Source: Bacteroidota bacterium
Lineage (GTDB): Bacteria > Bacteroidota > Bacteroidia > Flavobacteriales > Schleiferiaceae
Direction: 5' to 3'
Assembly: GCA_016868755.1 (NCBI GenBank)
Contig: VGFU01000001.1
Coordinates: 1 to 37,500, forward strand
DNA: 37,500 bases
Shown here: piece by piece, positions 2,003 through 25,266 of the stretch
How positions within the stretch are numbered: the first letter of the stretch is position 1
Layout: the number at the start of each line of letters is the position of its first letter
Made by a program: the position numbers and the translations under genes
The notes under the pieces: model-generated
Database searches by the model: none
Told to the model about the DNA's origin: nothing
Seen by the model: only the letters and a program-made list of their open reading frames with translations

Positions 2003-2689
2003 TCACGAATTCACGGAAGCCACGAGCTTCATCGCCGCGTCGAACAGCTCGTCGGGCGAAACCTGAGAGTTGTCAAGCACCACAGCATCGTCCGCAAGCA
2101 GCAGCGGACTATCGAGCCGCTCGCGGTCCTCTTTGTCGCGCTGAAGCAGGTTGGCCTTGACCTCGGCAAGGCTCACCGCTCCGGGTTGGGCGGCGTCCAT
2201 TTCGGCAAATCTGCGCTGCGCCCGCACGTCGGCGTCGGCGGTCACAAAGAGCTTGAGTTCCGCGTCGGGAAAAACTACGGTACCAATGTCGCGGCCGTCC
2301 ATGACCACGCTGTGGCTTCGGCCCATGGCTTGCTGCTGGGCAACGAGCCTCCGGCGCACGGGAACCAGGGACGACACCGCACTGACCACGCGGCTCACCT
2401 CCATGCTCCGAATCGCGTCTTCGACGTCTTCGCCGTTAAGGATGGCCCGATTGCGCCCCTGGGTGTCGCGCGCGAAGCCCAGATGGAGCTGCTCCAAGGA
2501 AGCATTGATGGCCACGGCGTTGATGCCCGTGGGCGAAGCCCATCCGTGGCGAATGGCGTGAAGGGCCACCATGCGGTACATGGCACCAGTGTCGATGTAC
2601 AAAAATCCGAGGGCGGCCGCCAAGCGCTTGGCCAACGTGGACTTTCCGGTCGAGGCGTAGCCATCTACGGCGATGCGAATCGGGATCAT
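2003..2689 (-). CDS. cmk: Cytidylate kinase
   Basis: Cmk phosphorylates CMP and dCMP with ATP for nucleic acid and phospholipid precursors. The 228-residue product begins MIPIRIAVDG and has the P-loop GYASTGKST at 10-18, followed by YIDTGAMYR and VMDGRDIGTVVFP, all typical of bacterial CMP kinases. The frame is open for 21 further codons upstream, but those lie in porQ. The ATG at 2689 overlaps the porQ stop (ATGA), the usual sign of coupled translation. It is the last gene of the minus-strand run rpmE2, nucleotidyltransferase, lon, porQ, cmk. Confidence 0.95.
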   Translation of the reverse strand: MIPIRIAVDGYASTGKSTLAKRLAAALGFLYIDTGAMYRMVALHAIRHGWASPTGINAVAINASLEQLHLGFARDTQGRNRAILNGEDVEDAIRSMEVSRVVSAVSSLVPVRRRLVAQQQAMGRSHSVVMDGRDIGTVVFPDAELKLFVTADADVRAQRRFAEMDAAQPGAVSLAEVKANLLQRDKEDRERLDSPLLLADDAVVLDNSQVSPDELFDAAMKLVASVNS

Positions 2690-3696
2690 AGCGAACGGGT
2701 GTAGGAGAACTGGGTGAATCGGCCCGCCACGTGGTAGACCGACTGCGACCACTGAAACTGGCTTTTGCCCGCCTTAAGCCCAAAACCCAGACTGAGTCCG
2801 GAGTTGGTGCGGCGCGTGGGCAGCTGCATTTCGAGCTGCCGGCGAAAATCGTAGCCAATTTGGGCGTGGAGGCGTCCGCCCAGCTCGGCCTCCACGGCCA
2901 CGGCCACGTGGCGCAAGGCTAGGTTGGCCCACGACGGCGCACTGTAGGTCGATTGCCCGGTCAACGGGTCGCGCACGTCGCGCAACGGCTCGTAGCCCGC
3001 AAGGTTCCAGCGCTGAAGGTCGCGGGCCGCCAAATGCACCCGGAACGGTGCGTAGCGAAACTTGCGGCTGAGGGCGGCGTGCAGCGCCGTAGGAAGGGGT
3101 TCAGCGGTGGCCCCCAATGGGTCGAGGCTCAGGCCCGCATGCTGAAGTACAAGCGCCGCATGCACGCGTCCACTGTCCGCCACCAAGGTCGCGCCCCAGT
3201 CGGTGCTGAGGGCCTGGGCGACGAGGTTCGAGGCTGTCTGCAGGGTCCAGCGCAGCGAAGTTCCCACCAGCAGCTGTGCTCCCCGGTCGCCCACGGCCCA
3301 GGACCGGGCTACGGTCACCCTGGGACGGGATTCCTGAAAACGAAAGCTGCCAATCACGGCGCCCAGTTCGTTGGTTTCGGGCATGGCGCCGGTGTTGAGG
3401 TAATCTGCGCCAACCGCTGCATACCAGGCTTTGCGGCGAAACGCAGCGCTCATGTGGCCCAAGCGGAGTCCGCTCGGAAGTCGCCCCGTGCTCAGCACAA
3501 CTTGGCTGCGGTCCAACCCTGCCGCCAACGACGGATTGAACGTGGACGCCGCCGCATCGGCCGGAAAAGCCCAAGCTGCCCCCGCCAACGCGTTCCAGCG
3601 AGCCGAGCCCGCCGTGTTCAGCGTCGACCACGAACCTGTTTGGGCGGCTCCGTTCACCGCGACCGACAACAAAATTCCAATCAGGCCCGTGCGCAC
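2686..3696 (-). CDS. porQ: Type IX secretion system protein PorQ
   Basis: PorQ is an outer-membrane barrel protein of the type IX secretion system, linked to attachment of cargo to the cell surface together with PorU, PorV and PorZ. The 336-residue product has a signal peptide (about residues 1-18, ending NGAAQ), then SARWNALAG and STFNPSLAAG, which match the N-terminal pattern of PorQ and related PorV/FadL-like proteins, and alternating amphipathic strands to the end. The start is a GTG 9 nt after the lon stop. The order lon-porQ-cmk is found in many Bacteroidota and supports the name. The rest of the secretion machinery is not in this window. Confidence 0.82.
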   Translation of the reverse strand: MRTGLIGILLSVAVNGAAQTGSWSTLNTAGSARWNALAGAAWAFPADAAASTFNPSLAAGLDRSQVVLSTGRLPSGLRLGHMSAAFRRKAWYAAVGADYLNTGAMPETNELGAVIGSFRFQESRPRVTVARSWAVGDRGAQLLVGTSLRWTLQTASNLVAQALSTDWGATLVADSGRVHAALVLQHAGLSLDPLGATAEPLPTALHAALSRKFRYAPFRVHLAARDLQRWNLAGYEPLRDVRDPLTGQSTYSAPSWANLALRHVAVAVEAELGGRLHAQIGYDFRRQLEMQLPTRRTNSGLSLGFGLKAGKSQFQWSQSVYHVAGRFTQFSYTRSL

Positions 3697-10352: not shown

Positions 10353-10703
10353 ATGGCCATTAAGATTACCGACGAGTGCATTAACTGCGGCGCCTGCGAG
10401 CCCGAATGCCCCAACAACGCGATCTACGAAGGCGGCATGGAATGGCGGTTTGCCGACGGAACCAAGCTCCAGGGCGACCTGGTGAGCAAGAGCGGTCTCA
10501 AAACCGAGGCCGGCAGCGCGCAAGAGCCGGTGAGTTTCGATTACTACTACATCGTCACCGACAAGTGCACCGAGTGCGTCGGTTTTCACGAGACCCCGCA
10601 GTGCGCCGAGGTTTGCCCGGTGGATTGCTGCGTTCCCGACGAGGACCACGTCGAAACGCGCGAAGAGCTGGAATCCAAGAAGTCGTTTCTGCACCTGGAT
10701 TAA
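10353..10703 (+). CDS. 2[4Fe-4S] ferredoxin (Alvin type)
   Basis: This 116-residue protein has two cluster motifs: Cys9, Cys12, Cys15, Cys19 followed by Pro, and Cys72, Cys75, then an eight-residue insertion, Cys84 and Cys88 followed by Pro. The longer gap in the second motif ([21 protein letters not shown]) is the mark of the Allochromatium vinosum type, which carries very low-potential clusters. A loop of about 45 residues (25-70) separates the motifs, longer than in the archetype. It probably donates electrons in the cytoplasm; the partner is unknown, although the divergent acyl-CoA reductase is a conserved neighbour. Its TAA overlaps the next gene's ATG by one base (TAATG). Confidence 0.93.
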
Positions 10704-20686: not shown

Positions 20687-23119
20687 ATGCTCAGTCTAGC
20701 CCGCCGCGAATTCGCATCCTTCTTTCAGTCCGCCACGGGCGTACTCGTTTTAAGCGTTTACCTCGGACTGAATGCCGTGTTTCTCTGGCTCATGCCCGGC
20801 AGCTTTCACCTGCTCGACAGCGGGTACGCGCAGCTCGACGGGTTGTTTATGCTGTCCCCGTGGGTCTTTTTGTTCCTGGTTCCCGCCCTCGCCATGCGCA
20901 TGCTCGCCGAGGAACGCCGCGCCGGCACCCTCGATTGGCTTCGCGCCAAGCCCTTGACTACTTGGAACATTGTCACCGGAAAATGGCTGGCCGGCATGGC
21001 CCTTTTGGGGCTCGCCCTACTCCCGACGCTCCTTTATGCGGCCTCGCTTTACGTGCTGGGCAACCCGGTGGGCAACCTCGACCTGGGCAGTACCGCGGGC
21101 TCCTACCTGGGTTTGTTTGTCTTGGGCGGGTCCTACCTCGCCATTTCGTTGCTTTTCAGCGCCGGCACCGACAACTCCATCGTGGCTTTTGTTGGCGGAG
21201 CGGCGGGCAGCTTAGCCATGTACGCGGGCTTTGATGCGTTTGTCGACCTTCCGAGCGTGGCCACCCGCGGACTCTACCTCGTTCAGTGGGGCATCGGCGA
21301 GCACTACACGTCGATGAGCCGGGGCGTTATTGACGCCAACGACGTGCTTTATTTTGGCGGACTCACCTTTGCCTTTTTGGCCGGCGCCCGGCTGCTGCTG
21401 GAGCCCCGAAAGGACCTGCGCCGCATGGCTCCGCTCGCGGCAGCCCTGGCTGTGGTCGCGCTGTCGACCCTTCGCCCCGTGTTTCTGCGCTTGGACCTCA
21501 CCGCCGACCAGCGCTTCAGCCTGAGCGACGCCACCGAGGCGCTCCTTGAGCAGGTCGAGGAGCCCATGCTCGTCACCATTTACCTGGAGGGCGAATTCCC
21601 CGCCGGATTCCAGCGCCTACAGGCCGAAACCGTTCGGCTGCTCGACGAATTCCGCGCCCGCAACCGCAACATCCGGTACGAGCTCGTCAACCCATCAGAA
21701 AACGCCGACCCGCAGGTGCGCCGCGACACCTACACCCAGCTTCAAAACCTCGGCCTCGGCGCCATTCAGCTCGAAATCCAGGAGGCCGACGGCGTGAAAA
21801 CCCAGCAAGTTTTCCCCGGGGCCGTCGTGAGCTACAACGAGCGCCAATGGCCCGTTTCGCTGCTCCTCGAGCAGTTTGCCCAAGCCCCGGAGGCCCAGAT
21901 CAACGCCAGCATCCAAAACCTGGAGTACGCCCTAGCGGCCTCCCTTCGCGGACTGCTGCAGACGGAGCGCAAGCGCGTCGCCTTCATCGACGGCCACGGT
22001 GAACTTGCGCCGATTCAAACCGCGGCCCTGGAACTGAATTTGCGCAAGAGCTACGACGTGTTCCGCTTCAACCTCCGGGAGTTTCCCGTCGACAGCACCA
22101 CCGGCGAACCTTCGCTCACCGAGCAGGTGCGCCGACTCAACAGCTTTGACGGCATCATCTTGGCGAAATCCCGCGAGTCGTTCACCGAACTTGACCGCTG
22201 GCTGCTCGACCAGTACCTCATGAACAACGGCCGCGCCATTTGGATGGTCGAAGCGGTGCACGCCGAGATGGATTCGCTGAGCTATGCCTCAGAATTTTTG
22301 GCGTACCCGCAGCTCGACTTCATCGGGCTCGACGGGCTGCTGTTCACCTACGGAGCCCGCGTGAACACCTCGCTGGCCACCGACCTCGTCTGCGCCGGGG
22401 TGAACGACCAGCGCTCCGTGCGGCCGTGGATCTACTTTCCGCTGATGCTCCCGCAGTCCGAACACCCGATCGTGAAAAACCTCAATGCCGTGCGCTACGA
22501 GTTCGGAACCACCCTCGACACGATTCGCGTACCGGGCGTCACCAAAACGGTACTGCTGCAGACCTCGCCCTACGCGCGCCGCCGTCCGGCCCCGACCCAA
22601 GTGAGCTTGGCCGAGCTCTACAACGAGCCCGTGCGCGGCCACTACACCGAAGGTCCGCTCGCTACCGCGGTGCTCCTGGAAGGCGAGCTCCCCTCCTACT
22701 ACGCCAACCGCATGGTGCCCAAAACCGAGCTGCCCGCGCCACCCGCCGCGGCAAAAGACGCCAAGCTGCTCGTCGTGGGCGACGGAGACTTGGGCAAAAA
22801 CCAGCGCAACATCGTGCGAAGCGACATTCCGCGGGGCGCGCCCCTGCCGCTCGGCTACGACCAGTATACGGGCCAGCAGTTCGGCAATTCTGACTTTCTG
22901 CTGAACGCGATGGACTACCTGCTCGAGGGCAGTGGACTCATTTCGGTGCGCGGACGCGACGTCAGCTTGCGCTTGCTGGACCGCCCTAAAGTGGACGCCC
23001 GCGCCGTCTTCTTTCAAACCCTGAATACGGTCGCACCGATTGCGCTCGTCCTCGTACTGCACGCCCTTTACCGCCGTCTGCGCAAGCGCCGGTTCGGCCG
23101 TCCCCAATTTGAATTATGA
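20687..23119 (+). CDS. GldF-GldG fusion, gliding-type ABC transporter permease and auxiliary subunit
   Basis: The 810-residue protein joins two proteins that are separate in Flavobacterium johnsoniae. Residues 1-245 match GldF, an ABC-2-type permease: MLSLARREFASFFQS, LAMRMLAEERRAGTLDWL, then about six membrane segments. Residues about 247-810 match GldG: a membrane anchor (249-265), RLDLTADQRFSLSDAT, VTIYLEGEFPAGFQRLQAET, the large periplasmic domain with FIDGHGEL, and a C-terminal membrane helix (about 780-798) with a basic tail. The GldG part alone is about 565 residues, the usual full length, so neither half is reduced. An in-frame ATG at 21425 (Met247) marks the likely ancestral GldG start. 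The ATPase GldA is not in the window. DUF4340 and dnaN follow, as in other flavobacteria. Confidence 0.88.
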   Translation: MLSLARREFASFFQSATGVLVLSVYLGLNAVFLWLMPGSFHLLDSGYAQLDGLFMLSPWVFLFLVPALAMRMLAEERRAGTLDWLRAKPLTTWNIVTGKWLAGMALLGLALLPTLLYAASLYVLGNPVGNLDLGSTAGSYLGLFVLGGSYLAISLLFSAGTDNSIVAFVGGAAGSLAMYAGFDAFVDLPSVATRGLYLVQWGIGEHYTSMSRGVIDANDVLYFGGLTFAFLAGARLLLEPRKDLRRMAPLAAALAVVALSTLRPVFLRLDLTADQRFSLSDATEALLEQVEEPMLVTIYLEGEFPAGFQRLQAETVRLLDEFRARNRNIRYELVNPSENADPQVRRDTYTQLQNLGLGAIQLEIQEADGVKTQQVFPGAVVSYNERQWPVSLLLEQFAQAPEAQINASIQNLEYALAASLRGLLQTERKRVAFIDGHGELAPIQTAALELNLRKSYDVFRFNLREFPVDSTTGEPSLTEQVRRLNSFDGIILAKSRESFTELDRWLLDQYLMNNGRAIWMVEAVHAEMDSLSYASEFLAYPQLDFIGLDGLLFTYGARVNTSLATDLVCAGVNDQRSVRPWIYFPLMLPQSEHPIVKNLNAVRYEFGTTLDTIRVPGVTKTVLLQTSPYARRRPAPTQVSLAELYNEPVRGHYTEGPLATAVLLEGELPSYYANRMVPKTELPAPPAAAKDAKLLVVGDGDLGKNQRNIVRSDIPRGAPLPLGYDQYTGQQFGNSDFLLNAMDYLLEGSGLISVRGRDVSLRLLDRPKVDARAVFFQTLNTVAPIALVLVLHALYRRLRKRRFGRPQFEL

Positions 23120-24132
23120 AGCAATCCAAACTTCCCGCCCTGCGCTGGTCTGTGATTTTGGGCCTCGCCTTGGTAAGCCTGGTCGTCTTTTTAGTCCTTC
23201 GCGAGTCGCAAAGCCACGACGACTTGAGTCCCGAAGCCTACGACTTTGCCGTCGCCGACACCGCGGCCATTGACCGCATTGTCCTGTGGAACCGCAGTCC
23301 CGACACCGCCTTACTCACCCGCGAGTCTGGCGTATGGCTCATTAACGGCGCCCATCCCGTGCGCCCCGACGCCATTGAGGTGCTGCTCGAAACCCTCTAC
23401 CGCGTGCGCCTTCGCGGATTTGCGCCCGACGCCGCAACGGCCAACATCCTATCGGCCATGTCGACCTACGGCACCCACGTCGACGTCTTTGCGGGCGACC
23501 AAAACCTTAAATCGTTTACCGTCGGAACCGAAACGCCCGACATGCTTGGCACCTACTTTTTGCGCGACGGATTCGGCCGTCCTGTGGCCGTGCACATTCC
23601 GGGATTCAACGGCTTCTTGAGCAGCCGATTCTTTTTGCGCGAGGACCTTTGGCGCCACCGCATCCTCTGGTCGAGCAACGAGCCCGTAACCTCCATCCAG
23701 CTGCGTTTTGCCGACTCGACTGCAGCGAGTTTTTCGCTTCGCGAGCAGGGCGGAAGCTGGACGCTCGAACAAAACGGTAAAAAATCGCCGGCCGACGGAA
23801 TGGCCGTTCAAGCCCTGCTGAAGGCCGTGGCCTCAAGCCAGTACGAGGGCGTGGTAATCCCAAGCGACCTTGCCTATGCCAAGCAAGACAGCCTTAAAGC
23901 CTTGGAGCCGCGCATTCGCGTCGACGTCCTTCGCGCCGACGGGAGCCGCAACCACCTAGAACTGTACCATGTTCCGCCCGACCCCGAGGCGATGACTGAA
24001 GACGGCACTCCGTTGGAATTCGACCCCAACCGTTTTTATGGGCTTTTAGATGACGGACGCATGGTGCTCGTTCAGCGGTTCGGTCTTCAACACCTGTTGA
24101 AAAGTTCTCGCGCATTGAGTGCCTCGAGGTAA
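23116..24132 (+). CDS. DUF4340-type membrane-anchored protein
   Basis: The 338-residue protein has one N-terminal membrane helix (about 12-30) and a large extracytoplasmic part with repeated beta-rich units such as VWLINGAHPVRPDAIEVLLETL and SWTLEQNGKKSPADGMAVQALLKAV, each a short strand pair followed by a helix. This pattern is the DUF4340 type, commonly encoded next to GldG-like auxiliary subunits of ABC transporters. It probably works with GldFG in the envelope; the mechanism is unknown. Its ATG overlaps the gldFG stop (ATGA), so translation is coupled. dnaN starts 12 nt after its TAA. Confidence 0.85.
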   Translation: MKQSKLPALRWSVILGLALVSLVVFLVLRESQSHDDLSPEAYDFAVADTAAIDRIVLWNRSPDTALLTRESGVWLINGAHPVRPDAIEVLLETLYRVRLRGFAPDAATANILSAMSTYGTHVDVFAGDQNLKSFTVGTETPDMLGTYFLRDGFGRPVAVHIPGFNGFLSSRFFLREDLWRHRILWSSNEPVTSIQLRFADSTAASFSLREQGGSWTLEQNGKKSPADGMAVQALLKAVASSQYEGVVIPSDLAYAKQDSLKALEPRIRVDVLRADGSRNHLELYHVPPDPEAMTEDGTPLEFDPNRFYGLLDDGRMVLVQRFGLQHLLKSSRALSASR

Positions 24133-24144: not shown

Positions 24145-25266
24145 ATGAAGTTCATCGTTTCCAGCGGACACTTGCTCCGCGCCCTGCAGACCGTTTCTGG
24201 CGTTATTCAATCCAACCATACGCTCCCAATTTTGGACCATTTTCTGGTGGTCCTCGAGCCCAATAAGCTCACCCTCACCGCTTCAGATCTGGAGACCACG
24301 ATGACCACGACGCTCGACGTGTCGTCTGAAAGCAGCGCCACCGCGGCCATTCCCGCGCGAATGCTGTTGGACACGGTCAAGAGCTTTCCCGAGCAACCGC
24401 TAACGTTTACGTTCAACCCGAGCGCCCACAGCCTCGAAGTGAGCAGCGACTTTGGTAAGTACGCCATTTCGTATGTCGACGCGGCCGAATACCCCAAGGC
24501 GCCTGAGGTAGCGGCCACCGTGACGGTAGAGCTCCCCGCGCACGTGCTGGGTACGGCAATCGGAAAAACACTTTTTGCCGCCGGCAACGACGACCTTCGC
24601 CCGGTAATGAGCGGCGTATTTTTTCAGCTGACTCCCGAAAGCCTGACGTTTGTGGCCACCGACGCCCACAAGCTCGTGCGCTACCGACGCAGCAACTTCG
24701 CGGCCCCCCAAACCGCCGAATTCATCATGCCCAAAAAGCCATTGAATTTGCTGAAGGCCACCCTGGGGAGCAACGACGACCTCGTCGAAATTCGCTACAC
24801 CGAGCAAAATGCGCAGTTTACCTACGACGGCGTCACGCTTGTTTGCCGACTTATTGACGGCAAATACCCCAACTTCGAGGGCGTAATCCCCAAGAACAAC
24901 CCGAACCGCATGACGGTCGACCGCGGCGCCTTCACCGGAAGCGTGAAGCGCGTGAGCCTGTTCGCAAATAAGACCACCCACCAGATTCGCCTTAAAATGG
25001 CGGGCAACGAACTTTTCATCAGTGCTGAAGACCCCGATTTTGCCAACAAGGCCCACGAGCGCCTCGCGTGCAGCTACGAAGGCGGCGATCTTGAAATCGG
25101 ATTCAACAGCCGGTTTATCGTCGAGATGCTCGGCAACGTCGACAGCTCGTCGGTGGTTTGGGAGTTTTCGGCGCCCAACCGCGCCGGCCTCTTGTTCCCC
25201 GATCGACCGGGCGAAGACGGCGAAGACCTGCTCATGCTGGTCATGCCGGTGATGCTGAATTCCTAA
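24145..25266 (+). CDS. dnaN: DNA polymerase III sliding clamp (beta subunit)
   Basis: DnaN forms the dimeric ring that tethers the replicative polymerase. The 373-residue protein has the family length, starting MKFIVSSGHLLRALQTVSGVI and containing TLPILDHFLV, the domain 2 segment DDLRPVMSGVFFQ, FVATDAHKLVRYRR, and the C-terminal LMLVMPVMLNS, which corresponds to the peptide-binding end (VMPMRL type). There is no dnaA beside it; in this phylum dnaN often sits after gldG/DUF4340 rather than at the origin. A metallophosphatase follows at 10 nt. Confidence 0.97.
   Translation: MKFIVSSGHLLRALQTVSGVIQSNHTLPILDHFLVVLEPNKLTLTASDLETTMTTTLDVSSESSATAAIPARMLLDTVKSFPEQPLTFTFNPSAHSLEVSSDFGKYAISYVDAAEYPKAPEVAATVTVELPAHVLGTAIGKTLFAAGNDDLRPVMSGVFFQLTPESLTFVATDAHKLVRYRRSNFAAPQTAEFIMPKKPLNLLKATLGSNDDLVEIRYTEQNAQFTYDGVTLVCRLIDGKYPNFEGVIPKNNPNRMTVDRGAFTGSVKRVSLFANKTTHQIRLKMAGNELFISAEDPDFANKAHERLACSYEGGDLEIGFNSRFIVEMLGNVDSSSVVWEFSAPNRAGLLFPDRPGEDGEDLLMLVMPVMLNS

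Follow-up and report, generated by a model that had tools for sequence, protein, structure and literature searches.

The locus described here raises a question: is a long reading frame which carries both GldF and GldG a genuine gene, and what would the union of the two proteins mean for the transporter of gliding bacteria? It lies in a window of 37,500 nucleotides, the whole stretch of Bacteroidota DNA which we have analysed. Very probably the gene gives one working polypeptide, in which GldF is permanently joined to GldG within an otherwise ordinary GldAFG transporter, and the two genes were fused by an indel at their overlap.

The fused gene and its neighbours

The features of the locus are the following:

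20687..23119, + strand: gldFG fusion gene, 810 amino acids plus stop, uninterrupted from ATG to TGA
20687..21400, + strand: GldF permease part (ABC-2 type), residues 1–238; TIGR03518 260 bits, NosY fold
21401..21415, + strand: linker EPRKD, residues 239–243, from AlphaFold secondary structure and the codon pattern of the junction
21416..23116, + strand: GldG part, from TIGR03521 (502 bits), Pfam, a match to the IFT52 GIFT domain and the model; it comprises the anchor helix (244–262), DUF7088, ABC_transp_aux with the GIFT fold (428–741) and a C-terminal membrane helix (773–803)
21425..21427, + strand: internal ATG (Met247) between the two halves; not conserved, probably not used
23116..24132, + strand: DUF4340 protein, with an ATGA overlap with the gldFG stop; PF14238 28 bits, cut-off 25
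24145..25266, + strand: dnaN, a syntenic marker of the gldFG locus

A first-pass annotation of the sequence had proposed that full-length GldF and GldG are fused in frame in the locus of the gliding ABC transporter. The open frame, the domain matches and eight further species confirm it. The Pfam domains come in the order expected for GldF plus GldG: ABC2_membrane_2, DUF7088 and ABC_transp_aux. The GldG model TIGR03521 matches residues 256–803 (model positions 12–551 of 552) with 501.6 bits, above its curated equivalog cut-off of 389.85. The GldF model TIGR03518 matches residues 1–238 (positions 1–237 of 240) with 260.4 bits, below its curated equivalog cut-off of 288.5; residues 1–246 scored alone reach 264.7 bits, still below it. 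This cut-off is passed by two congeners in which both genes are split, L014 (312.9) and L010 (291.3), and by the fused relatives L013, L020 and L023; L158 is the exception among the proteins tried. The GldF half of the fusion is thus not a member by the NCBIfam threshold. It covers nearly the full model, it has an orthologous position in the tree and it keeps the synteny gldF-gldG-dnaN; we consider it a diverged GldF orthologue from tree and synteny only. The fused gene has a single copy in the source genome.

Fused and split relatives share the gene order purC-phoH / SAM-hydrolase / gldFG / DUF4340 / dnaN / phosphoesterase. In Flavobacterium psychrophilum gldG is likewise found upstream of dnaN (PMC5682007). 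The DUF4340 gene keeps its position after gldG in fused and split relatives alike, and its product is a probable partner of the transporter. A 7.2 Mb genome has a contiguous operon ATPase – GldF-like – GldG-like – DUF4340 (L241 316–4629), in which the permease and GldG are in the same frame with only one stop and 9 nt between them. The contiguity of DUF4340 with ATPase, permease and GldG in this operon suggests that it is a partner of this type of transporter. Elsewhere in the window, at 2686–3696 (- strand), there is a diverged homologue of the T9SS protein PorQ (163 bits, cut-off 220), which overlaps a cmk-like ORF (2003–2752) by 67 nt.

Reality of the joint

The same unbroken frame, with 810–812 codons, is found in eight other assemblies, which correspond to eight other species of the genus. 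Their proteins are 88–98% identical to the fusion of the window and the GC content of the locus is 56–63%. The length of the linker is constant among the fused congeners. At the junction (codons 225–262) these species have pN 0.22 and pS 0.54, dN 0.26 and dS 0.94, with dN/dS about 0.28; the ratio is about 0.04 in GldF and 0.075 in GldG. The junction changes faster than the core, yet it is under purifying selection, and its substitutions fall mostly in third codon positions. Because of this selection we conclude that the joint is translated as protein in this frame.

The assembly of the window's genome is fragmented, with 70 contigs, and one might think of an assembly or sequencing error. The chance of this is negligible, given the same architecture in eight independent assemblies in the GC range just mentioned, the constant linker and the bias of substitutions towards certain codon positions. 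An assembly artefact is ruled out by the agreement of nine assemblies, by a junction which evolves as coding sequence and by the conserved order of the flanking genes. The joint is genuine and not a sequencing error.

Over the whole genus (L001–L024) the GC content of the gldFG locus goes from 34% to 63%, with the fused species at the high end. The names of some of their assemblies, such as Baikal and Loclat, suggest a freshwater origin; the split ones include BACL7, which is probably marine or brackish.

The internal ATG

The ATG at 21425 had been described as lying exactly where GldG would begin and as a start from which separate GldG could still be made. Comparison with split congeners does not bear out this position: it places the ancestral gldG start about 8–10 codons upstream. 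Among the fused congeners only L002, the 98% relative, has the same ATG. L003 (94% identical) has CTG at codon 247 and no ATG there, L004, L008 and L009 have ATG one codon later (248), and in L005–L007 codon 247 is not ATG, and ATGs occur instead eleven and ten codons before it (236/237). The 20 nt upstream of 21425 contain 25% AT, as compared with 45–65% at 13 of 14 further gene starts which were examined in the window; the remaining one, at 10406, is also low in AT and may be misplaced.

Separate GldG might also, or even mainly, be produced by initiation at 21425 or by proteolysis of the linker, but we find this unlikely. It is true that an ATG is present between the halves, that an SD-like AAAGGA is found 10 nt upstream of it and that eight of the nine fused congeners have an in-frame ATG somewhere near the joint. 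However, the codon occupied by this ATG varies (247, 248 or 236/237) and in L003 it is absent, the upstream region is poor in AT, AAAGGA is missing in L002 and L003, and the junction is under selection as coding sequence. Flavobacteriia rarely use Shine-Dalgarno sites. Internal initiation at 21425 is not supported by these comparisons, and the full-length chain would be the product of the gene.

Distribution of the fusion

Nine species of the genus are fused and twelve are split, among those with a readable junction. In the family the fusion is present in 35 of the 84 genomes which gave a match: genera g6, g9 and g12 have it in every readable member, and g1, the genus of the window, in part. 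The proportion is 13 of 111 in the sample of the order (families f1, f2, f3, f4 and f10) and 11 of 186 in that of the class, where further families appear (f19, f23, f50, f55 and f65). Three of the fused Flavobacteriales assemblies, G158, G172 and G208, consist of one contig each and probably come from isolates. The fused state in these surveys corresponds to the length of the open frame, with confirmation at the sequence level for those genomes which were fetched; two genomes, G234 and G343, seemed to be fused by frame length but are split in frame on the sequence. Taken together, the three surveys find the fusion in ten or more families of the class. A comparison with relatives on a tree had been suggested as a check, and its outcome is mixed: the fusion is found again and again, but most relatives do not carry it. 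Among related bacteria the GldF-GldG fusion recurs as a variant of a known machine; it is neither a one-off nor an error. We found no description of it in the literature searched, which did not extend to subscription journals or database annotations; sequence databases may well contain such fused proteins already.

Origin of the fusion

In most split relatives the gldG start overlaps the end of gldF by 1–8 nt, in the +2 frame. Split gldF genes across the class commonly end in ...SRKW-stop, with the gldG start within the end of gldF, for example AAATGGTAATG. A stop/start overlap of this kind is typical of translational coupling. The same nucleotides encode the GldF tail, SRKW or SRNW-stop, and the gldG start (ATGGTAATG or GTGA) in split relatives such as L026, L029 and L014; this C-terminal tail, common across the class, may be conserved owing to the overlap with gldG.

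Loss of the gldF stop had been put forward as the way in which the fusion arose. The distance from a GldF anchor to the GldG motif DLT is 123 nt in the fusion of the window, while the nearest split congeners have 140 nt. Because of this difference and of the +2-frame overlap, a net deletion of 17 nt (or an equivalent change) with a change of frame fits better, and plain stop loss is rejected as the likely path in the genus. Three low-GC split congeners (L010–L012) have the gldF stop in frame with gldG, which leaves stop loss alone possible in principle. The fused proteins of g9 still show ...QSRKWDKKSR... at the joint, which is what a small indel in the former overlap would leave.

The number of events was estimated on three trees, whose counts of fused/split changes do not distinguish gain from loss. 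The largest one has 137 rows and covers the GldF and GldG parts without the linker; it was made quickly and contains several long branches, and it needs at least ten changes, nine of them forced by well-supported branches. A tree of 63 rows, calculated with a mixture model for fewer lineages, needs eight changes, and a careful tree of the family, with 32 rows, needs three. A single clade of all fused sequences of the family is ruled out by the AU test (p about 5e-86).

The history of the family could still be one old fusion before the separation of g9, g6, g12 and g1, followed by fission in the part of g1 which is now split. This would compete with repeated fusion and has no bearing on the functional reading. 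These four groups nest together on the large tree, and within the family one gain and one loss is the most parsimonious course; we give it a fair share of the probability, although clearly the minor one. Against it, the split species of g1 retain the GldF tail SRNW-stop, and six of the twelve share the GTGA overlap with other split genera, an overlap which is lost in fused g1, g12 and g6. The four fused groups also have four different distances between anchors (123, 132, 129 and 144 nt, the groups other than g9 having 123, 129 and 132), and the tree of 32 rows, with its three changes, does not resolve g9 and g6 with g1/g12. These features appear to favour repeated fusion in the family over one old fusion and later fission.

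Structure and proposed function

An AlphaFold model of the fusion, built with 116 sequences from the surveyed genomes, gives a single chain with a mean pLDDT of 94.5 and pTM 0.88. The last helix of GldF (217–238) is followed by a loop (239–243) and by the anchor helix of GldG (244–262); another anchoring helix is found at the C-terminus (773–803). The prediction around the joint, which had been recommended, shows with high confidence a five-residue turn, and agrees with the earlier suggestion that the GldG anchor comes directly after the last permease helix. By homology the linker should be cytoplasmic. From what is known of the family, both ends of GldF and the N-terminus of GldG are expected to be cytoplasmic, so that direct joining would leave the topology unchanged.

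Structure searches with the model relate residues 1–241 to NosY (PDB 7o0y, 7o12 and 7qba; Z about 20, rmsd 2.7–2.9, about 18% identity). The GldG domain 428–756 has a GIFT-type fold (Z 16.6–21.6), with matches to IFT52 (Z 21.6) and OST48/Wbp1 (Z 17–20). These matches agree with the published relationship of the GIFT domain, which is named after GldG and IFT (PMC10191852, PMC7226087). A sequence search of the PDB gave no relative of the fusion protein among solved structures.

As for the partners, the best GldA candidate in the source genome (G000:C11:5544–6185; L244 1491–2522, - strand) has 330 bits with TIGR03522, below the cut-off of 402.6; it covers model positions 1–218 of 301 and lacks about 80 C-terminal positions. 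This shortening is common to fused and split congeners, and a full-length GldA is found in family member G022. The same genome has GldJ (520 bits) and the T9SS motor component GldL (184 bits), both above their cut-offs. In F. johnsoniae both GldF and GldG are needed for the membrane localization of GldA and for gliding, and the stability of GldK needs functional GldA and GldF (PMC9127263). Some gliding species have neither GldF nor GldG (PMC7440613).

We propose that an indel at the tight stop-start overlap of gldF and gldG would have created a single chain with both proteins permanently joined. Two such chains would pair with two separately encoded GldA ATPases to form the ABC transporter associated with gliding and T9SS. 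The GldF half would be its NosY-type ABC-2 membrane domain and the GldG half a doubly anchored periplasmic arm with the GIFT fold. Fusion would fix a 1:1 ratio of GldF to GldG, a ratio to which translation coupled by the overlap in split species is probably already close; covalent coupling would replace translational coupling and the function of the transporter would otherwise be unchanged. Two points stand against this explanation: the GldF half, with 260–265 bits, is below its cut-off of 288.5, and the assumed partner GldA is itself unusual in missing its C-terminal part.

A broader proposal is tentative, and we would put it at somewhat less than even. About ten or more independent fusions may have taken place in Bacteroidota since GldF and GldG form an obligate 1:1 unit with overlapping frames. 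Their short linkers would then reveal the intact architecture, in split species too: the N-terminal anchor helix of GldG beside the last helix of GldF, in a GldA2(GldFG)2 complex built from a NosFY-like core and a pair of GIFT arms. This could perhaps be an assembly or mechanical device for gliding lipoproteins, and not an importer that works with a soluble binding protein. Naturally occurring fusions of this kind, whose linkers are short, constrain the architecture, both in the 1:1 ratio and in placing helix next to helix. The fused protein is also a single-chain construct for structural work, and the presence of fused and separate orthologues in one genus makes a direct comparison possible.

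Comparison with known systems

NosDFY shares the NosY fold with the GldF half, but its periplasmic partner NosD is different from GldG and is encoded as a separate subunit. A literature search for NosDFY together with mechanotransmission found no paper. IFT52 and OST48/Wbp1 have the GIFT fold of GldG, but they are eukaryotic and do not belong to any ABC transporter.

A second diverged operon is found in G038, from another family of the order (L240 1205–4466, - strand), with a GldA-like ATPase and a single-chain permease-ABC_transp_aux protein of about 753–777 amino acids. This paralogue (L240 1205–3538, Flavobacteriaceae-type) also has a permease followed by a GIFT-like ABC_transp_aux domain in one chain. 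Unlike the fusion of the window, it belongs to a different subfamily, has 86 bits with GldF and lies next to its own ATPase; the GldG model TIGR03521 is absent among its matches listed. Its occurrence indicates that a permease-GldG architecture in a single chain is not alien to the superfamily.

Another close system is that of F. johnsoniae, whose GldF and GldG (Fjoh_2722 and Fjoh_2721) belong to the same families, with the same order and, in Flavobacteriia, the same synteny on the dnaN side. There they are two genes, whereas here they form one polypeptide of 810 amino acids, for which the same partners, GldA, GldJ and GldK, are expected.
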